In this document: piece after piece, positions 4,809 to 27,822 of the stretch
Layout: each line of letters starts with the position of its first letter
Numbering within the stretch: position 1 is the first letter of the stretch
Source: a virus
Virus record (IMG/VR): IMGVR_UViG_3300030333_004295
Coordinates: 20,890-50,005 of that record
DNA: 29,116 nucleotides
Reading direction: 5' to 3' (one strand)
The notes under the pieces: generated by a model
What the model was told of the DNA's origin: nothing
Seen by the model: only the letters and a program-made list of their open reading frames with translations
Database searches by the model: none
Translations under genes and position numbers: made by a program

Positions 4809-5801
4809 ATGGCTACAGGAATAAAAAGCATTATAAGTAATATGCTTCCTAGCTTGTATAAAAACGTAGGTAAAACAGAAGCAAAAAATCCTTTAGATTT
4901 TGGATACGATCCTTCTTTTATGTATCAGCCTAGAATTAAAAAAGCAACAGGAAAAGAAGTTATTGAAGGACAATTACAACCTAGAACCGAAGACGGATAT
5001 ACACAATATGAGCTAGAACTAGGAGAAAACGTAGATAAAAGTTTAAAAAACTATATTGGCGCTCCACAAGACATGATAGACAATGCTATTACTCAGATTT
5101 ACAAAAACGCTTCAAGAACTGGTTCTTTTGCTGAACAGTTTACTGAAGAAGATGTTAGAAACAGATTTAATCAGTTAGCAGAAGAGGCACAAAGACAACA
5201 AAAACAAGAAGGCGGTGAAGTAGAAGATCAGATGGGCGATCTTATGATGATGGAAGAACAAGAAGAAATGCCAATGCAAGAAGAGCCTATGCCTGAAATG
5301 TTGCCTGATGAAGAAATGGAAGAAGATTATATGGACTTTGTGATAAATGAATCACTAAGTCAAGAAGAAGAAGATTATTTATTTGAAAAACTTAACGAAG
5401 ATGAGATGTTAAGTGTAATTTTTGATAAAGTAATTGAAACAGCTTCAGAATTTTCAGGTGCTGGCCCTGTTGAAGGACCAGGATCTGGAGTATCAGATTC
5501 GATACCTGCAAGGTTATCGGATGGAGAGTTCGTTATGACTTCTAAAGCAGCTAACCAAATTGGTCCTGAGAACCTACAAGGTTTGATGGAAGTAGCCGAA
5601 ATGGAAGCTGATGAAGAAATGAGACGAACAATGCAGGTTGGTGGATATGTAAACGTAGAGGAAGAAGAAGACGAAGAAATAGTTCGTTCTGTTCAGCCTA
5701 AAGAACGACAAGGTAGTTTAATGCCTAAGTCTTTAGCTGATAAAAAAGTGAGCGAATCTATGATTGCTTTGAATCCTCGTAATTCACTATTCGTCTCCTA
5801 A
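4809..5801 (+). CDS. Acidic virion-associated protein with DSIPARLSDGEFV motif
   Basis: A 330-residue protein of unknown precise function lying between portal and scaffold. Residues 140-180 are extremely acidic and Met-rich (repeated MEEQEEMP-type runs). Residues 223-241 read GPGSGVSDSIPARLSDGEF, followed by VMTSKAANQIG. This motif is shared, as I recall, by many marine phage virion or tail-associated proteins that carry it as a module. The C-terminus has another acidic run (about 285-292) and a basic end. The AGAGGAG ribosome site at 4795-4801 is strong. The neighbours suggest a minor head or assembly component; a protein that protects or assists scaffold assembly is an alternative. The function is not proven. 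Confidence 0.7.
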   Translation: MATGIKSIISNMLPSLYKNVGKTEAKNPLDFGYDPSFMYQPRIKKATGKEVIEGQLQPRTEDGYTQYELELGENVDKSLKNYIGAPQDMIDNAITQIYKNASRTGSFAEQFTEEDVRNRFNQLAEEAQRQQKQEGGEVEDQMGDLMMMEEQEEMPMQEEPMPEMLPDEEMEEDYMDFVINESLSQEEEDYLFEKLNEDEMLSVIFDKVIETASEFSGAGPVEGPGSGVSDSIPARLSDGEFVMTSKAANQIGPENLQGLMEVAEMEADEEMRRTMQVGGYVNVEEEEDEEIVRSVQPKERQGSLMPKSLADKKVSESMIALNPRNSLFVS

Positions 5802-10851: not shown

Positions 10852-13800
10852 ATGGCACAAAGTTATACAAGACAAAGTACGTTTAGTGATGGAGATACCA
10901 TTACTGCTGCATTGTTTAACAATGAATACAATCAATTAGTAAATGCATTTACATACAGTTCTAGCAGTGCTTCAAGCACAGGCCACAGACACGATGGTAC
11001 AGCAGGACATGGTGGTAATATACATACTATTGGTGATTTAGATTTTCTTAATAAAATTGTTGTAGATAGCACAAATAATCGTTGGGGAGTATTTGTAGAA
11101 GTTTCTAGTGCTGCAGTTGAGCAGATTAGAATACAAGACGGAGCTATTGTTCCAGTTACAGATAACGATATTGATTTAGGAACAAGTTCTTTAGAATTTA
11201 AAGATGCTTATTTTGATGGTACAATTACCACAGATTTATTAACAGTTTCAGGAGCAACTAATCTTGATGGTGCTATTCAAGTAGATAATACTATAACTGT
11301 TGGTGTAGATGATACTGGTTACGATGTTAAATTCTTTGGTGATACAGCTAGTGCTTACATGTTATGGGATGCTTCTGCTGATGATTTAGTATTAGCAGGT
11401 GCTGCAGGTCTAGATGTTGCAGGAGATATAGATGTTGATGGAACTTCTAACTTAGACAATACAGACATAGACGGAACACTTGCAGTAGACGGAACAACTA
11501 TTTCACTAGATGCAACAACATCATTAAATATAGACAACTCTAATACTTCTAACGGTATCACTATTGGTACTGCAACTTCTGGTGTTCCAGTTTCAATAGG
11601 TCACACAACTTCTGAAGTAACAGTAAACGATAATCTTACAGTAACAGGAACACTTACATTAGGTTCAGGTGCAGAATTAACAGAAGCTGAACTAGAAATG
11701 CTTGACGGAATTACAGCAGGAACTGTTGCAGCTTCTAAAGCAGTAGTCGTAGATTCAAATAAAGATGCAGCTTCTTTTAGAAACATTACACTTACAGGCG
11801 AACTTGATGCAGGCTCATTGGATGTATCAGGTGATGCAGATATAGATGGTACATTAGAAACAGATGCTTTATCAATTAATGGAACTGCAGTTACAGCTAC
11901 AGCAGCAGAATTAAACATTCTTGATGGAGTAACTGCAAGTGCTACAGACATTAATCTTATAGATGGCATAACAAACGGCACAGTTATAGCCAGTAAAGCT
12001 ATTATAACAGACGCTAACAAAGACATTAGTGGTGGTAGAAATATAACCATTAGTGGCGAGCTTGATGCAGCTACACTTGATATTAGTGGAGATGCTGATA
12101 TTGACGGAACTTTAGAAGCCGATGCATATACAGTAGACGGAACTGCATTAAATGAATATATTGCAGATACTGTAGGTGCTATGGTATCTTCAAATACTGA
12201 GACTAATATCACTGTTACTTACGAAGATGGAGACAACACACTAGATTTTGTAATTGGCACACTTAATCAAGACACTACAGGAACTGCTGATAATATTACA
12301 GTCTCTGCAAATAACAGCACAGACGAAACTGTATATCCAATATTTGTAGATGGAGCTACAGGATCACAAGGAGCAGAGTCTGATACAGGACTTACTTATA
12401 ATCCTAGCACAGGAGTATTAACATCTACTTCATTTACAGGTAATTTAACAGGTAATGTAACAGGTAATACAAGTGGTACAGCAGCTACAGTAACAGGAGC
12501 AGCACAATCAAATATTACAAGTCTTGGAACGCTTACAACTCTTACAGTTGATAATGTAATAGTTAATGGTACAACTATAGGACATACATCAGATACAGAT
12601 TTAATGACTCTTGCTGATGGTGTATTAACAGTAGCAGGCGAAGTATCAATGACTACGCTTGATATAGGTGGTACAAATGTTACAAGTACTGCAGCAGAGT
12701 TAAACATCTTAGATGGTGTTACAAGTACTGCAGCAGAACTAAATATCCTGGACGGAGCAACAGTTGTTGTAGGTGAACTTAATTATCTTGACTTAGGTGC
12801 AACGGCTGTCGGTACAGCAATAGCCTCTAAAGCAGTTATACTTGATTCCAATAAAGATTACACAGGTATAAGAAACTTAACCATTACAGGTGAGTTAGAT
12901 GCAGCTACATTAGACATAAGCGGTGACGTAGATATTGATGGAACACTAGAAACAGACAACCTAACAGTTGGTGGCGCACAAGGTTCTGACGGACAAGTGC
13001 TGACTTCAACAGGAAGCGGAGTAAATTGGGAAACTCCTGCTAGTGGTGGGGCTAATTCAATAAACGATTTATCAGATGCTAAAACTTTTGGTACTTCTTC
13101 AATTATGATTGGAGATGCTACTACAGGAACAATTAGTGGAGCAAATTATAATACAGGTGTAGGTGTTAATGTTTTTGAAGCCTTGACAACTGGTGATGAA
13201 AACGTAGCTATGGGTTATGCTTCTTTAAACGATTTAACAACTGGAAGTAAAAATACTACTATAGGAGCTACAGCAGGAGCAAAGATAACAACAGGTACTG
13301 ACAATACGGCTATGGGAGCCGATGCTCTTAAAAATGTAACTACAACCAATAACAGTACAGCATTTGGTAAAGGAGCTTTGTTGGCAAGTACGGCAGAAGG
13401 AAACACTGCTGTAGGAAAAGATTCTCAACTTGCAACCACTACAGGATATAGAAATGTATCGATGGGTAAAGAATCTTTAATGACTAATACTACAGGGGAC
13501 CAAAATGTAGCCATAGGAAATAATGCACTTGAGTTAAGCACAACCGCAGATAACAACACAGCACTTGGTTATAATACTTTAAATGCAACTACCACAGGTG
13601 CTACTAATGTTGCTGTCGGTTCTCAAACTTTAGCAGCAAACACAACAGCTTCGGATAATACAGGTGTGGGATATGCTGTTTTATTAGTAAATACTACAGG
13701 CGCAAATAATACTGGTGTGGGTGTTAATTCGTTACAAGCGAATACTACTGCTTCTGAAAATGTTGCGGTGGGTAAAAATACTATGCTTGCAAATACAACA

Positions 13801-15315
13801 GGCGCACAGAACGTAGCGGTGGGTGCGAATGCTTTAGACGCTAACACAACGGCAGCTAATAACACTGCTATTGGCTACAATTCTATGACAGGAAATACCA
13901 CAGGAACAGCAAACGTAGCGGTAGGTACTGCAACTTTGGTAGCTAATACAACTTCTTCAAATAACACTGCAGTTGGGTATGCAGCTTTAAACGCAAATAC
14001 TACAGGTACTTCTTTAACAGCCGTAGGTAAAGATGCTTTAATTGCAAATACGACAGGTGACAATAACATTGCGATAGGTCGTGATGCAGGACAATCAATT
14101 ACAGAAGGCTCTAATAACATTGTAATTGGTGTTGAAGCATATGAAACAGCAACTACAGCTAATGGAAACATAGCAATCGGTAAAGGCTCATTAAAAGCAA
14201 ACACAACTGGAACTGAAAATGTTGCCATAGGTCACGAAGCTGGTAATGATGTAACCACTGGTGCTGGACACACACTTATTGGTTATTTAGCTGGAGACAA
14301 AATCACAACCGCTTCTCAAAACACGGCAGTAGGCTCTGAAGCATTGGGATCAAATACAGGTGGTGGTTTAAATACTGCTATTGGTTATAACGCAATGCTT
14401 GGAAACACAACTGGTGGTGATTGTACTGCGGTAGGCGCAAGAGCTTTAGATGCAGCAAATGCAGCCGATGGTAATACTGCGGTAGGTTCAGCAGCACTAG
14501 GAGCAAATACAACTGGTGCGCAGAATACAGCTTTAGGTACTTATGCTTTGGATGCAAATACAACAACACATTACAGTACAGGTTTAGGATATGATGCGCT
14601 AACTGCTTCTACTTCGGCAGCAAATACTGGTGTGGGTGCTTATGCTGGAACAGCAATTACAACTGGGGATGGAAATACTTGTGTTGGCTTTGAAGCAGGT
14701 GATGCGATCAGTACAGGCACAGATAATGTAATGATTGGTAAAAGAGCAGGTGATGACCAAACTACAGGAAACGGAAATACAGTAGTAGGCTCAAACGGAG
14801 ATACAGGAGCAAGTGGTGCTACTGGTCGTTTAGTTCTTGGATCAACAATTGATGGTACAAGTGATGCAAGAGCAACGCTTGGATATAACGGAAATGTTGT
14901 CGAAATCGATTTGAATGGTTCAGATGAATCTTGGGCAGCATCTTCGGATGAAAGGTTAAAAGAAAATGTACAAGATGCTACAGCAGGACTTCAATTTATT
15001 AACGAACTCAGACCAATTACATATCAATGGAAGAAAAAGAAAGATGTTCCAACGGATATGCCACAGTATGAAAAAGACTCTAATGAACCGAGTGTCGGTT
15101 TAGAGTATGGTGTAGAGTATCACGGCTTTATTGCACAAGAAGTTAAAGCAGTTATAGACAAACACGATGACATAAAAGACGGTCAAAATATTTGGAAAAC
15201 AGGTGATGACGAAGTGCAAAAAATTGCAAAAGGTGGTCTAATACCAATGCTTGTAAAAGCAATCCAAGAACTCTCGGCAGAAGTCGAGCAATTAAAATCT
15301 AAAATAGAGGAATAA
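10852..15315 (+). CDS. Giant tail fibre with tandem repeats and S74 intramolecular chaperone
   Basis: A 1487-residue receptor-binding fibre, probably a trimer. Residues 1-70 (MAQSYTRQSTFSDGDTITAA; GHRHDG) form the likely tail-attachment end. Residues 70-720 are beta-rich with three 44-residue repeats (295-338, 381-424, 659-702) and TAAELNILDGV turns. Residues 767-1308 hold 32 tandem copies of a 17-residue NTAVG-type repeat resembling trimeric adhesin head repeats. Residues 1365-1487 are a peptidase S74 chaperone domain: SDERLKEN with the expected catalytic pair Ser1365 and Lys1370, then ITYQWKKK, HGFIAQEV and a C-terminal coiled coil. In this family the domain guides trimer folding and then cleaves itself off, here predicted between Ser1364 and Ser1365. 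Minus-strand open frames across it are shadows of the repeats. Confidence 0.93.
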   Translation: MAQSYTRQSTFSDGDTITAALFNNEYNQLVNAFTYSSSSASSTGHRHDGTAGHGGNIHTIGDLDFLNKIVVDSTNNRWGVFVEVSSAAVEQIRIQDGAIVPVTDNDIDLGTSSLEFKDAYFDGTITTDLLTVSGATNLDGAIQVDNTITVGVDDTGYDVKFFGDTASAYMLWDASADDLVLAGAAGLDVAGDIDVDGTSNLDNTDIDGTLAVDGTTISLDATTSLNIDNSNTSNGITIGTATSGVPVSIGHTTSEVTVNDNLTVTGTLTLGSGAELTEAELEMLDGITAGTVAASKAVVVDSNKDAASFRNITLTGELDAGSLDVSGDADIDGTLETDALSINGTAVTATAAELNILDGVTASATDINLIDGITNGTVIASKAIITDANKDISGGRNITISGELDAATLDISGDADIDGTLEADAYTVDGTALNEYIADTVGAMVSSNTETNITVTYEDGDNTLDFVIGTLNQDTTGTADNITVSANNSTDETVYPIFVDGATGSQGAESDTGLTYNPSTGVLTSTSFTGNLTGNVTGNTSGTAATVTGAAQSNITSLGTLTTLTVDNVIVNGTTIGHTSDTDLMTLADGVLTVAGEVSMTTLDIGGTNVTSTAAELNILDGVTSTAAELNILDGATVVVGELNYLDLGATAVGTAIASKAVILDSNKDYTGIRNLTITGELDAATLDISGDVDIDGTLETDNLTVGGAQGSDGQVLTSTGSGVNWETPASGGANSINDLSDAKTFGTSSIMIGDATTGTISGANYNTGVGVNVFEALTTGDENVAMGYASLNDLTTGSKNTTIGATAGAKITTGTDNTAMGADALKNVTTTNNSTAFGKGALLASTAEGNTAVGKDSQLATTTGYRNVSMGKESLMTNTTGDQNVAIGNNALELSTTADNNTALGYNTLNATTTGATNVAVGSQTLAANTTASDNTGVGYAVLLVNTTGANNTGVGVNSLQANTTASENVAVGKNTMLANTTGAQNVAVGANALDANTTAANNTAIGYNSMTGNTTGTANVAVGTATLVANTTSSNNTAVGYAALNANTTGTSLTAVGKDALIANTTGDNNIAIGRDAGQSITEGSNNIVIGVEAYETATTANGNIAIGKGSLKANTTGTENVAIGHEAGNDVTTGAGHTLIGYLAGDKITTASQNTAVGSEALGSNTGGGLNTAIGYNAMLGNTTGGDCTAVGARALDAANAADGNTAVGSAALGANTTGAQNTALGTYALDANTTTHYSTGLGYDALTASTSAANTGVGAYAGTAITTGDGNTCVGFEAGDAISTGTDNVMIGKRAGDDQTTGNGNTVVGSNGDTGASGATGRLVLGSTIDGTSDARATLGYNGNVVEIDLNGSDESWAASSDERLKENVQDATAGLQFINELRPITYQWKKKKDVPTDMPQYEKDSNEPSVGLEYGVEYHGFIAQEVKAVIDKHDDIKDGQNIWKTGDDEVQKIAKGGLIPMLVKAIQELSAEVEQLKSKIEE
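11734..11865 (+). repeat. Fibre 44-residue repeat, copy 1
   Basis: Residues 295-338 begin SKAVVVDSNKDAASFRNITL and continue through a GELDAGSLDVSGDADIDGTL block. Copies 2 (11992-12123) and 3 (12826-12957) share SKA, DxNKD, RN(I/L)T, GELDA and DIDGTLE. It probably forms a beta-structured shaft unit. Confidence 0.8.
11992..12123 (+). repeat. Fibre 44-residue repeat, copy 2
   Basis: Residues 381-424 begin SKAIITDANKDISGGRNITI and align without gaps to copy 1. They are preceded by TAAELNILDGV and TDINLIDGITNGTV, the same linker type found before the other copies. Confidence 0.8.
12826..12957 (+). repeat. Fibre 44-residue repeat, copy 3
   Basis: Residues 659-702 begin SKAVILDSNKDYTGIRNLTI and align without gaps to copies 1 and 2. 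They follow a doubled TSTAAELNILDG linker. The wider distance from copy 2 shows the three units are not a simple tandem array. Confidence 0.8.
13150..14775 (+). repeat. Array of 32 tandem 17-residue (51-base) repeats in the fibre
   Basis: Residues 767-1308 divide into 32 units, 30 of 17 residues and two of 16. The consensus is approximately N-T/V-A-V/I-G-Y-x-A-L-x-x-N-T-T-G-x-N. The alternating small/hydrophobic residues plus Gly at position 5 fit a left-handed parallel beta-roll like the YadA/Hia head. DNA identity between units is modest, so the array is old or diversified rather than freshly duplicated. Confidence 0.92.
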
Positions 15316-21771: not shown

Positions 21772-24700
21772 ATGACTAATTTATTTGAACTTTATCGAAT
21801 TTATGATTCAGCAAGCGAAGAGCAAAAAAATCAACTAAAAAGAACTTACGGTGGCGCTCTTTCAGAGCCTGTTGAAGCGATCTTTAATTTAGGAGCTTCT
21901 ACCCTTATCGATACCCCTTACGTACCTCCTACTTCAGGAGTTGCTTTCTTATCTGAAGAAAATCAAAAATACATGTCTGACTTTCAAAAAGAACCAGAAG
22001 GTCTAGAACAAGCCAGAAAACAAAAAAAACAAGCTTCTCAATATCTTCTACAAGATATATACGAAGCTGCTGTGGGCGAAGAAAATGTTGAAATGAGACA
22101 ACGAGGGGAATATATGTCTCCAACAATCACAAGGCCTGAAGGTTTAGGACCAAATGTTGTAAGAGAGCTTGGAAGTTTAGGCGCTGCAATCATAGGAGTC
22201 AATAAAGTAACTGCTCCAATTAAAACTTTTGACAAATTTAAAAAAACAGGTGCGCTTCTTAAAGCTGAAGCTGCAGGTCAACTTGCTCTAGATCCAATGC
22301 AAGATAATTTAGCTAACATTATTGGAGAATGGATTCCTGACGATTCTTGGTTTTCTTCTTTTGAAGAATACATTTTAGAACCTGTTAAATATGATAAAGA
22401 TGATACAGAATTAGAAGCTCGTATAAAAATGGGAGGAGAGTCTATTCTTGCTGTTTTAGGAATTACTGGAGTAGTTAAATTAGCTGGTGGAACATATAGG
22501 GCAGGTAAAGAACAAATAGGTAAAATTGATACGTCAGGAATAAAAGTTCCAGATGCTTTTATGGAAGTGCTTAAAGACTTAAAAGGCCAAAGTGCAGAAG
22601 TTAAAAAAGCTTTTGTTGATCAAATTAAAACAAGCTACAATAACTCTATTAAAAATAGAAAAAGCAATAAAATTAAAGAATCTTTGATTGAAAGAAGAAA
22701 AAGAGCAGAACAAAGAGGAGACGTACAAAAAGGAACGGCAGACACAGAAGCGTTAGAAGGAGGATGGTTTAATAGTTTAAATTCTAAATATTTTGAAAAT
22801 GAGTTAATGCGAACCGTAGGTGAAAGGTTAAGAGTAACTTTTTCTCCTAGACAAGGAGTGCCTATAAAAATGCATGAAAGGTACTTAAAAATGCAAGGAT
22901 TGCAAGAAAAACAATTTACTGAAATAGCTCATATTATAAGAAACATTGATACATCTTTTGGTTCAACAATTGAAAGACTGTTTGAAAAAATACCTACAGT
23001 AGGAAGGTCAGAAGAAAGAGATAAAATATTTAAACAAATCGATAATATTTTATACACTGATAGAAGGTTTCCAGCAATAAAAACAAGCAAAGGTTTTCAG
23101 CCTTCTGTAAAACAAACAGAAGAGTTTAATCGTCAATTAAAACTTCTTCCTGAAGAACTTAGAGAACCTGTTAAAACATTACGACAATATCAAGATAGCT
23201 TATCTCGTAGGCTTTCAATGCTTCCAGATATGGATCCTACGAAAGTAGAAGAAATTATAGATAATCTTGGTTTTTATGTAAGAAAATCTTATAAATTAAG
23301 AGAAGCAGGAAAATGGTATCCTTCTGGATCATTAGAAAAAGCAGCTAGAATTGATATTAAAAAACAATATTTAGAACAAACAACAAAAGGAAAAGAATTA
23401 AACAGAAGATTAACTGCTCCTCAACAAGAAGGAGAAACATTAGCGCAATATAAAATTCGAGTTTCTTCTGCACAAAAAGAACTAGACACAGCTATAGATA
23501 CAATTATAGAAGGACTGGCCAAAGCAGAAAAAGGAAAAGATTATTTTTCTTTAATGGGAGTAAAATCAAAATACTCAAATAAAGGACTAAATAATTTATT
23601 AAAAGAAAGACTTAAAATGCCTACAAGCGTACAAAAATTCTTAGGTCGTATTGATGATCCTTTAGACAAATTTGAAATTTCAGCAACGAAAACAGTAAGA
23701 AGATTAGAAGAACAAAAATTTTATAACGACATACATGAGCAAGGAAGAGGACTTTATATTTTTAAAGATCTTAATACAGCGCCTTCAGGATTTAAAGTAC
23801 AAATTCCAGAAGGTTATGGTAAGCTTAGCGGTATGTATACCAACGATGCTAATGCAAGATTTATTCAGAACGTAGACGAAATAAGTTTATTCATCGGTCA
23901 AGGAAACTTTGCAAAATGGGCAAGGGCAGGAGGATTTGTAAAAAGTATAATGCATGCCGTTAATACTATTTATTCTCACGGAACACAGTTTATTAACGTA
24001 GTTGGAGCTGGTATAGGCGCAATGGCAAACGGAAACAATCCGTTTAGTAAAGAATTTGCAAAAGGTTTAGAACTTCTTGTAAAAAGAGGAGCAAAAACAA
24101 CAGATAAACAAATACAAAAAGAACTTGCAGAGGCTGCAGAATATAATTTATTTGGTAAGAATATTTTAGCAAGCGAATACACACAAGGAATTAAAGAATT
24201 TACAAAAGGAAGAAAAGGCAAAACATGGCAAATGCTTGATACTTTGTATCGATTTACAGGTGCTAAATATCTAAACGAAGCATTTACAACTGCTTATAGG
24301 TCTGGAGATGAATTATTTAAGCTTGGAATGTGGAAACAAGAAACTAAATTTTTTAATAAAATTAATGATCTTTTACCTGAAGATCCTAAGTTTAACAAAT
24401 ACAGAATAGAAAACACCAAACAAGAAGCATCAGATGTTGTTAGTGGTGTTTTACAAAATTATGATTTTCTTCCTAGAGGAGTAAAAAAATTAAGAGGGAT
24501 TCCTTTAATATCTACCTTCTTTTCTTTTAGTGCTGAATCAATAAGAATGGCTGCTAATACAATGAGAAGAACATTTCAAGAAATAAAACTAGGTCGTGAA
24601 ATGATTAAAGATGGAGCAACAGAAGCAGGCCAGTTAATGATGAGAAGAGGAATACGAAGAGGCGCTGCATTTGGTGCTGTTGGTTACTTAGCAGAAGGAG

Positions 24701-27700
24701 GTTATGATAGGCTTACAAAAGACGAAAGAGAGATTGAAGCTAAAGAACATTATAATGTAGGAGTTGCTCCTGACTATCAAAAAGACACAAACTTTAGTAT
24801 TTATGTAGATGATGAAGGATATCCTCATGTTAATGCTACAACCAGATATAATCCATATAATTTTCCTATCTACTTTGTTAGAAGAATAGGTAAATATTTA
24901 ACAGATGATGATCCTTTAAAATTAAATCCAAGTCAAGACACTGTAAAAGTTGTTGAAGAGACTATTCTTGATGGCGCTGGTCCTTTTATAGATAGGTCTT
25001 TACTTGCAAATGCAATAAGCGGTCATTTTACATTTTCAGAAAGTGGACAAGGTTATCAAGTAAAAGAAGGATCTACTGAACCAACCTTAATAGAAAATCC
25101 ATTTGATCCAACACAAAAATTTGATACTCGTGGAAATTATATCAGTAATGCAATTTTAAACACTAACAATCTAACGATTCTATTGGCTAGATTAGCAGAA
25201 GCAACTATGCCAGGAACTATAAAAGCTGTAAAAAGATATAAAGACAGGACAGAAAGAAAAAGCGAAATAGACACTGATCCTGCTTCTCCTACATTTGGAA
25301 AAAGATTAACTCCTTATAAAGAAGAAATAAACTTAACAAATGAACAAATAAAATTTTGGACTGGTTGGAGTGATATAAAACTAACAACTGAATATTTAGA
25401 AGCACAATATGCAATGACAGCCAGAAAGTTTCAAAAAAGACAAAGGACTATAAAAGAAAAACTAGCTGCTTCTTTTTATGAAGGACAATCTCCAGAAGAT
25501 TTTGAAAGACTTGCAATTCAATTAAACGAAGAATATTATGGATATGCTAGAGAATTTGCACAGAAAACGGCAGCTATCACTTGGTTTACAAAAAACTACA
25601 AAACAATAAATGCAAGCCCTGTTAAAGTTTTAAGAGAAGAAGTAGGTTTATCGTTAGAAGAAGCTCTTGAATTAGCCCAAGTAGGAGATCAAGGATCGGT
25701 TACAGGAATTGAATTTTTTACTCCTCTTAAACTTACTCAAGGAGATTTACAGAAGTTTGTTGATTCTGAAAACAAGATGTACTCTGAAGAACAAAAAGAA
25801 TCTCCTTATAGAGCTTTTATAAATGTCAACGAAAAAGTATATAAAGAAATGTCCGCTATTCCTTTATTTGTACATGGAGACGAAGAAAGCAGAAACGATC
25901 CTAGAATATTAAATTTTGATCCAGATGTTTTTGATAAATTAAAAGAAAAATATAAAAGAGATCAAAACTTTGATGGAGGAGAAATATCTTTTCCTGTTCC
26001 CAATGTAGTTGAAGAACCCTCTGAAAGAATCAATCCTTTTACAGGAGAGCCTTACGAAGAACAAATGGAACGACTCGGTTTTGTTGGTGGAGGAGCTTTA
26101 AGAATTATACTTAAAGAAGCTTCAAAGAAAGCAAGTAAAGGCGCTGCAAAACTTGAAAAAGACGAAGAACAAATTATTAAAAATATACAAGGACCAAAAA
26201 CTAAAACAGTTCCTACAGATAAAACAGATACAGAACTAGACGAAATATTTGGTCCGTTAAATCTTGGTCCAGAAAAAAGAGCAGAAATTAAAAGTCAATT
26301 AAAAAAAACAAAAGGTGAACCGCTTCCGAAAGCATTAGAAACTGAGCTTGGCATAAGCGCTAAAAATTTAGCAGAAGGAAAAATAAGCTATGATGACTTT
26401 AGAAAAATTTCGCAAAAAGATATGCAACTATACAGTGGTCCTGTAACAAAAATTCCAGAACTTCCTAAATTAGAAGAAGTAGCTTCTGTTTTACCAGATA
26501 GTAAACTTAAATCTGGAATTTCTGAACTTAATAAAACTTTTAAATCAGGAGAAAAAGTTTCTTTACGTTTAGATATTCCTTCTTATAAAAATTATAATAC
26601 TTGGATTATGACTGTTCATAAACCTAAAGCAGATAAAGTTTTAGGCTATGGCAGAGCAGCAAAAATTAATAATGTTAAGTTTTTCAATAAAAATCCTGGT
26701 GCAGCTCTTTATACTGCTGTAGGAGGAGGTAAAACTCCTAGTGCTGCAATGGATGGTTCTTGGGTAAAACAATCAGAAAAAAGTGTTAGAGACGAAGCCG
26801 TACAAATAATTAAAGGCGGTAAAACTACAAAGTATACAGAAGAACAATTAAAAAACAATCAAGTTAAAGACTGGATTCAAATAAATTATAATCCTAGAAG
26901 AGCTTCTTTTTTCTACGATAAAAAATTTGGTTTACCTATCGAATCATCAGACGAAGTAATACAAGTTGGAAATGTTGTTCTTGCTAAAAATCCAAAAATT
27001 GGAAAGCCTACAGAAATAAGTTTAACGGCAGACGTAGCTAAAGCTTTAAATAAAAAATTTAAAACAGACCAATTTAAAAAGGGCCAAAGAATTACATTTG
27101 TAAAAGGAGGAACAGCTAGAAACTATCGTAAAGAGTACGACAATTATCACAGTTCTGAAAAACAAAAGAAAGACAGGGCGCACAGAAACAACGCTAACAG
27201 AAAGCTAAAAAGAGAAGGAAGGATTGTAAAAGGTGACGGAAAGGATGTTGATCATAAAGACGGAAATCCTAGAAACAACTCACCAAGTAATTTAACTGTT
27301 AAGAAAAAAGAAAGCAATCGATCTTTTAGTAGAAGACTCTCTGCAAGAAACGGTGGAGACGCTACAGAACTAAAAAACGATCAAAGACAATACGTAGAGT
27401 TTTATAATATGGCTGTAAAAGCTGGAATTGCTTATCCAGAAATAGTAGCTGCTCAAGCTAGTTTAGAGTCTTCTCATGGTACTTCTGATTTAACTACAAA
27501 GTACAATAATCCTTTTGGAATTAAAGTTTTAAGAAAAGCAGAAGTTGAAGCAAACCAACCTTCTGTACAAATGAACACAAAAGAAGTTATAGATGGCAAA
27601 GAAATAGTGTCTAAAGAAACTTTTAGAGTATATGACAGCATACAAGAATCTTTTGAAGGCTATAAAGAAAAAGTAGCTCATCCTAGATACGATGCAATAA

Positions 27701-27822
27701 GAGAAGCTAAAACTAAAGAAGAGTATGCAAGAGCTATACAAGATGGAGGATATGCTTCTGATCCAGACTATGCTGATAAACTTGTAAATATTGCAAACAG
27801 ATATCAGCCTTTTATAAAATAA
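21772..27822 (+). CDS. Giant polyvalent virion protein with HNH-like motif and C-terminal glucosaminidase
   Basis: This is a 2016-residue protein, probably ejected with the DNA. Residues 1-1550 are mostly charged helical segments with short hydrophobic patches (for example SILAVLGITGVVKLAGG and IPLISTFFSFSAESIRMAAN). Residues about 1590-1745 match the style of large polyvalent-protein domains (VSLRLDIPSYKNYNTW; RASFFYDKKFGLP; EVIQVGNVVLAKN). Residues 1825-1841 (DVDHKDGNPRNNSPSNL) resemble the DNA-binding core of HNH_3-type proteins. Residues 1880-2016 look like a glucosaminidase (GH73/FlgJ-type) domain with catalytic Glu1899 in AQASLESSHG, followed by NNPFGIK and VYDSIQESFEGY. In podoviruses the giant internal protein digests peptidoglycan during entry (T7 gp16 has an N-terminal transglycosylase). 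Here the hydrolase sits at the C-terminus and is of a different type. Confidence 0.85.
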   Translation: MTNLFELYRIYDSASEEQKNQLKRTYGGALSEPVEAIFNLGASTLIDTPYVPPTSGVAFLSEENQKYMSDFQKEPEGLEQARKQKKQASQYLLQDIYEAAVGEENVEMRQRGEYMSPTITRPEGLGPNVVRELGSLGAAIIGVNKVTAPIKTFDKFKKTGALLKAEAAGQLALDPMQDNLANIIGEWIPDDSWFSSFEEYILEPVKYDKDDTELEARIKMGGESILAVLGITGVVKLAGGTYRAGKEQIGKIDTSGIKVPDAFMEVLKDLKGQSAEVKKAFVDQIKTSYNNSIKNRKSNKIKESLIERRKRAEQRGDVQKGTADTEALEGGWFNSLNSKYFENELMRTVGERLRVTFSPRQGVPIKMHERYLKMQGLQEKQFTEIAHIIRNIDTSFGSTIERLFEKIPTVGRSEERDKIFKQIDNILYTDRRFPAIKTSKGFQPSVKQTEEFNRQLKLLPEELREPVKTLRQYQDSLSRRLSMLPDMDPTKVEEIIDNLGFYVRKSYKLREAGKWYPSGSLEKAARIDIKKQYLEQTTKGKELNRRLTAPQQEGETLAQYKIRVSSAQKELDTAIDTIIEGLAKAEKGKDYFSLMGVKSKYSNKGLNNLLKERLKMPTSVQKFLGRIDDPLDKFEISATKTVRRLEEQKFYNDIHEQGRGLYIFKDLNTAPSGFKVQIPEGYGKLSGMYTNDANARFIQNVDEISLFIGQGNFAKWARAGGFVKSIMHAVNTIYSHGTQFINVVGAGIGAMANGNNPFSKEFAKGLELLVKRGAKTTDKQIQKELAEAAEYNLFGKNILASEYTQGIKEFTKGRKGKTWQMLDTLYRFTGAKYLNEAFTTAYRSGDELFKLGMWKQETKFFNKINDLLPEDPKFNKYRIENTKQEASDVVSGVLQNYDFLPRGVKKLRGIPLISTFFSFSAESIRMAANTMRRTFQEIKLGREMIKDGATEAGQLMMRRGIRRGAAFGAVGYLAEGGYDRLTKDEREIEAKEHYNVGVAPDYQKDTNFSIYVDDEGYPHVNATTRYNPYNFPIYFVRRIGKYLTDDDPLKLNPSQDTVKVVEETILDGAGPFIDRSLLANAISGHFTFSESGQGYQVKEGSTEPTLIENPFDPTQKFDTRGNYISNAILNTNNLTILLARLAEATMPGTIKAVKRYKDRTERKSEIDTDPASPTFGKRLTPYKEEINLTNEQIKFWTGWSDIKLTTEYLEAQYAMTARKFQKRQRTIKEKLAASFYEGQSPEDFERLAIQLNEEYYGYAREFAQKTAAITWFTKNYKTINASPVKVLREEVGLSLEEALELAQVGDQGSVTGIEFFTPLKLTQGDLQKFVDSENKMYSEEQKESPYRAFINVNEKVYKEMSAIPLFVHGDEESRNDPRILNFDPDVFDKLKEKYKRDQNFDGGEISFPVPNVVEEPSERINPFTGEPYEEQMERLGFVGGGALRIILKEASKKASKGAAKLEKDEEQIIKNIQGPKTKTVPTDKTDTELDEIFGPLNLGPEKRAEIKSQLKKTKGEPLPKALETELGISAKNLAEGKISYDDFRKISQKDMQLYSGPVTKIPELPKLEEVASVLPDSKLKSGISELNKTFKSGEKVSLRLDIPSYKNYNTWIMTVHKPKADKVLGYGRAAKINNVKFFNKNPGAALYTAVGGGKTPSAAMDGSWVKQSEKSVRDEAVQIIKGGKTTKYTEEQLKNNQVKDWIQINYNPRRASFFYDKKFGLPIESSDEVIQVGNVVLAKNPKIGKPTEISLTADVAKALNKKFKTDQFKKGQRITFVKGGTARNYRKEYDNYHSSEKQKKDRAHRNNANRKLKREGRIVKGDGKDVDHKDGNPRNNSPSNLTVKKKESNRSFSRRLSARNGGDATELKNDQRQYVEFYNMAVKAGIAYPEIVAAQASLESSHGTSDLTTKYNNPFGIKVLRKAEVEANQPSVQMNTKEVIDGKEIVSKETFRVYDSIQESFEGYKEKVAHPRYDAIREAKTKEEYARAIQDGGYASDPDYADKLVNIANRYQPFIK

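Follow-up and report, generated by a model that had tools for sequence, protein, structure and literature searches.

Open reading frame (ORF) calls on the window, a stretch of 29,116 nucleotides covering positions 20890-50005 of the 50-kb IMG/VR record IMGVR_UViG_3300030333_004295, delineate one uninterrupted giant gene followed by two conserved smaller genes (Table 1). The giant ORF is not an assembly accident, since the same full-length protein is present in two more IMG/VR records (L001, 100% identity; L002, 95%), and the single 2016-residue chain described in an earlier sequence-only reading is thus real. Judged by its sequence, the source phage is an HTVC103P-type marine podovirus: its large terminase subunit (TerL) is 64-65% identical to those of the pelagiphages HTVC115P, HTVC103P and HTVC104P, and the gene order also agrees. 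These three phages belong to the HTVC103P-type group, which carries HMO-2011-type morphogenesis genes (PMC8528129). Positional counterparts of the giant gene are HTVC115P gp40 (1893 aa), HTVC103P gp52 (1671 aa), HTVC033P gp52 (1393 aa, carrying LPD38) and CRP-9 gp36 (1141 aa), all of which, like the giant gene itself, close the structural operon. A lysozyme also forms the end of HTVC103P gp52, but the first three counterparts lack the particular C-terminal end described below. Elsewhere in the window, a gene in the portal-capsid interval (4809-5801) bears the motif SDSIPARLSDGEFVMTSKA and matches tape-measure PHROGs; the gene that CRP-9 and ctYwJ313 have at this place bears the polyvalent block described below for the giant protein. 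A tail fibre or spike of 1487 aa (10852-15315) is rich in short repeats (NTAVG..AL..NTTG) and has an end that resembles an intramolecular chaperone.

Table 1. Features of the giant gene and its downstream neighbours, in window coordinates. LPD, label used here for the unnamed polyvalent-associated domain.
Feature	Position	Strand	Remarks
Giant protein gene	21772..27822	+	2016 aa; near end of head/tail operon
Core, residues 1-1399	21772..25968	+	Predicted mostly helical; putative internal/ejected virion role
Linker motif PVPNVVEEPSERINPFTGEPYEEQMERLGFVGGG, within residues 1400-1445	25969..26106	+	Core end; C-terminus itself in several relatives
Unnamed polyvalent-associated domain (LPD), residues 1516-1760	26317..27051	+	
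HNH cassette, residues 1779-1862 (84 codons)	27106..27357	+	HNH_3 and phrog_4590
GH73 glucosaminidase, residues 1874-2016	27391..27819	+	PF01832; Glu1899 codon 27466-27468
Conserved gene, 146 aa	28015..28455	+	Downstream; 78-89% identity in L017 and L260
Conserved gene, 126 aa	28460..28840	+	Downstream; anchor for collecting the same locus elsewhere

Domain composition of the giant protein

The core is 28% identical to the same-locus relative L206 (residues 10-1313) and 33% identical to L260 (residues 4-1445), while BLAST detects no similarity to HTVC115P or HTVC103P. Its AlphaFold model is of low confidence (pLDDT 52), too low for a fold search. Residues 609-942 match gp123 of Cellulophaga phage phi18:3, a protein annotated from virion MS/MS proteomics. 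This match, together with the gene order, makes a location in the virion likely and an internal or ejected role of the giant protein, whose ejection had been supposed, plausible. The core closes with the linker ...EPSERINPFTGEPYEEQMERLGF..GG. A familiar point of comparison is T7 gp16, a very large internal core and ejection protein that is encoded in the virion gene cluster and carries a peptidoglycan hydrolase. The giant protein shares these traits of size, gene cluster and enzyme, but its hydrolase is C-terminal and of another family (GH73), and searches against Pfam and PHROG return no match that would indicate homology to gp16.

Pfam recognizes only two domains in the giant protein, GH73 and HNH_3, both above their curated cut-offs, so that profile searches bear out the two families previously read from the letters. 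The glucosaminidase profile (PF01832) matches residues 1881-2012 over positions 8-122 of its 123 (E 7.5e-27, 94.9 bits, cut-off 30.2) and is the sole match of this family within the 50-kb record. The FlgJ structure 3vwo in the PDB also matches this end (E 1.8e-16). The earlier choice of Glu1899 as its active residue holds as well: in the stretch ASLESSHG it aligns with the catalytic Glu of FlgJ, which is Ala in PDB entry 3k3t, and this Glu is also kept in the relatives L181 and L182. HNH_3 (PF13392) matches residues 1819-1849 over profile positions 15-44 of 46 (E 3.9e-7, 30.0 bits, cut-off 24.8), around the motif DVDHKDGNP...SNL (about 1825-1841) that had first suggested this family, whereas phrog_4590 spans residues 1780-1862. 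Read from the sequence, the predicted catalytic set D1827, H1828, N1840 and N1849 is intact; the D-H-N-N spacing was compared with that of I-HmuI.

Upstream of the HNH cassette, residues 1516-1760 form a block with 486 relatives in IMG/VR and a confident predicted model (pLDDT 82, pTM 0.80). In CRP-9 and ctYwJ313, its counterpart lies in another gene, directly after the portal. Neither a fold search of the PDB with this model nor a comparison of the block's sequence profile with the PDB gave a significant match. In BFVD, it matches giant proteins annotated as ART-PolyVal, Zeta toxin, tail lysozyme, LT_GEWL and PcfJ-like (E about 1e-16 to 1e-17), and its relatives show a weak match to Phage_L5_gp82 (PF25735), just under the cut-off. 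In another giant ORF (L140, 995-6370), a relative of the block is fused with an anti-CRISPR ADP-ribosyltransferase of the AcrIF11 type (E 4.9e-21 in NCBIfam).

The order polyvalent-type region, HNH, hydrolase is as first described, and what had been called polyvalent-type domains corresponds to a conserved folded block shared with giants of that type, although not to any named Pfam LPD. The giant protein resembles the polyvalent proteins of Iyer et al. (2017, PMC5512222) in being a very large late-gene product in which several unrelated effector domains are joined in one polypeptide, in having same-locus relatives with ART-PolyVal, in sharing its block with ART-PolyVal and Zeta-toxin giants, and in carrying a wall hydrolase, a known component of such proteins. 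It differs in that no named polyvalent domain (LPDn, ART-PolyVal, zincin) is found in it by Pfam at E up to 10. We therefore call it polyvalent-type rather than file it as a polyvalent protein, the polyvalent link being a shared domain that has no name. Iyer et al. cite the phiRIO-1 paper for virion lysozyme domains; their main text does not mention glucosaminidase and names HNH only with GmrSD.

Exchange of parts at the C-terminal slot

The same locus was collected elsewhere through the 126-aa anchor gene, which has 255 relatives; the best 80 were kept, giving 80 loci. Most of these have an upstream ORF of at least 350 aa, which in some loci, where it is the longest, is a neighbouring gene and not the giant one. 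The region behind the linker is occupied very differently among relatives at this locus. The combination LPD-HNH-GH73 is found in the window, L177 and L183, and HNH-GH73 without LPD in L181 and L182. HNH precedes a GH24 lysozyme in L186 (= L017) and L262, and GH24 occurs without HNH in L178 and L332. Other occupants are Phage_lysozyme2 (L198, L206), a methyltransferase (L179) and ART-PolyVal (L187 and L232 above the cut-off, more weakly L243). In L260, HNH is followed by a domain without assigned identity, and several relatives stop at the linker and have an empty slot. A search for more GH24-bearing alleles yielded six relatives, one of which was informative (L332). Among the alleles sampled, in which intermediates are few and IMG/VR contigs often incomplete, each of the three C-terminal parts can be exchanged without the others, and LPD-HNH-GH73 is one state of a C-terminal slot. 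The combination had been suggested as a possible distinct entry module; the idea of a fixed module of this kind finds no support, as its parts swap independently and the HNH, inserted in frame, is dispensable in related alleles.

The exchange can be followed at the DNA level. Similarity between the window and L017 is confined to the linker, the HNH block, the 3' flank and 92 bases upstream. The HNH block itself is 83% identical to L260 (27106-27356) and 84% identical to L017 (27130-27353). L181 and L186 keep 94% identity up to the end of the HNH, beyond which they carry different hydrolases (GH73 versus GH24). The clearest case is the pair L178 and L186, in which a single site, between flanks that are otherwise similar, has the HNH in one allele and lacks it in the other: L186 has 252 nt extra, exactly in frame, position 379 of L178 matches position 631 of L186, the match of the left flanks extends to 383 in both, the flanks of the difference are 81% and 95.5% identical in DNA, and the lysozyme ends are 91% identical in protein.

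Probable mobility of the HNH cassette

Gly-Gly codons mark the left joints of the cassette; at the right joint, most copies have A-R-N-G or A-R-S-G. Its GC content at third codon positions (GC3) is 0.29, compared with 0.13-0.15 across the remaining gene. The dN/dS of 0.11-0.14 indicates strong purifying selection, which would also fit a domesticated function. Between the window and L260, dS of the HNH is 0.92, close to the value of other genes and near saturation, so that a recent exchange between these two is not indicated. The record holds no second HNH copy. Of the 80 best HNH relatives, 70 lie in ORFs shorter than 130 aa and are thus mostly free-standing; HTVC011P gp25, for instance, is a free-standing HNH_3 ORF with 64% identity to the cassette and the same motif. 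Such free-standing relatives adjoin scaffold and capsid genes (HTVC011P gp25, KM23-C739 cds32). Unlike them, the HNH of the window is fused in frame, without start or stop of its own, in a virion-type protein.

Being optional in frame, mostly free-standing among its relatives and placed at an exchange boundary, the HNH fits homing-type mobility. Phage homing endonucleases are known to lie at exchange boundaries (Barth et al. 2023, PMC10448857), and the cassette resembles them in its variable presence, its nearness to virion genes and its place at such a boundary. It differs in that it has neither intron nor intein and is translated within its host protein. The open frame, an Rfam search that gave no match, and the joints, at which no intein end residues were seen by eye, speak against an intron or intein. 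Overall, the HNH looks less like a nuclease dedicated to DNA entry than like a mobile in-frame endonuclease that would double as a recombination joint.

HNH blocks like that of the window are also seen at or near the C-terminus of other marine phage ORFs of about 900-1130 aa (L281 4965-8123, L283 4926-8216, L288, L294, L296, L267, L040), several of which begin with a nucleotidyltransferase-like stretch. The search for presence and absence of the HNH in these other ORFs yielded three loci only.

Roles of the nuclease and the hydrolase

Taken together, it is fairly probable that the product of the gene is a giant internal virion protein of polyvalent type, with a helical core some 1400 residues long, a conserved linker and a C-terminal payload slot that holds an unnamed domain, a mobile HNH and a FlgJ-like GH73. 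The protein would be packaged in the virion and then ejected, and its GH73 end is predicted to open the wall at entry, perhaps again at lysis. The HNH would act mainly at the level of DNA, as a homing-type endonuclease spreading into hinge sites, and may serve as a homology joint for the swapping of the payloads beside it; the protein would tolerate it as an additional domain.

That the fused hydrolase also, or instead, acts as the lysis enzyme, with the giant protein replacing a free-standing endolysin, is compatible with this explanation and a reasonable possibility. Five hydrolase families were surveyed in 20 related phage records (G000-G014, W01-W05; several contigs incomplete; the window's own record surveyed without PF18013). 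In nine of the 20, the giant gene includes a hydrolase and the tested families give no free-standing match; in seven, the giant gene lacks one and a GH24, GH73 or amidase occurs free-standing; and four have neither by the tested families, among them CRP-9, for which an endolysin is annotated. HTVC115P, for example, has a free-standing GH73 (gp20) and a free-standing GH24 (gp22). No record combines a fused and a free-standing hydrolase of these families; the chance of such zero overlap is about 0.004, rising to 0.01 once two near-duplicate records are left out, with shared ancestry ignored. Since both forms were never detected together, the fused GH73 may serve lysis besides entry. Against this, the surveyed records are related and partly incomplete and the five families limit the count, no signal peptide or release mechanism was identified in the giant protein, and virion hydrolases of the T7 gp16 type coexist with a separate endolysin.

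Joining both strands, we tentatively propose, as a more doubtful generalization, that a splicing-free, in-frame mobile HNH spreads through hinges rich in glycine within giant virion proteins, forming the joint at which hydrolase and anti-host payloads are exchanged in pelagic phages, and that the fused hydrolase replaces the free endolysin, one enzyme serving entry and lysis.

The HNH could instead be a dedicated payload within a fixed entry module, binding, nicking or cutting DNA at entry, be it that of the host or of a competitor. The intact D-H-N-N set, the dN/dS of 0.11, the position between a polyvalent-associated domain and a wall hydrolase, and the similar HNH ends of other large marine phage ORFs would all agree with such a role. 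We nonetheless consider it unlikely: the HNH is missing from the sister alleles L178 and L332, which have the same kind of hydrolase, it is mostly free-standing elsewhere, and the same block stands beside unrelated domains on either side. The related suggestion that the HNH nicks or protects the entering DNA found no specific support. Still less probable is that the HNH, comparable to HK97 gp74, has been domesticated as a nuclease for packaging or the head, acting with the terminase. HNH genes of homing endonuclease type that adjoin the terminase can indeed serve packaging (PMC10448857), and the free-standing relatives have scaffold and capsid genes as neighbours, but here the HNH is located inside a giant protein at the far end of the operon and is optional in sister alleles. 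An assembly chimera or chance motif matches are hardly credible even for a metagenome-derived record, as the same ORF occurs at 95-100% identity in independent metagenomes, HNH-GH73 recurs in L181 and L182 behind other upstream sequence, and the domain scores exceed curated cut-offs.

The locus offers a natural allelic series in ocean phages. With core, payload, HNH and hydrolase separable in it, the part that determines host range, evasion of defence, entry or lysis can be sought. The series suggests that a protein may tolerate nuclease mobility within it without splicing, and it raises the question whether one wall enzyme can serve both entry and exit. As a separate observation, the same phage carries a Mom-family DNA modification gene (L325 10729-11406, i.e., G000:C1:10729-11406; E 4.5e-39), possibly a defence against host restriction.
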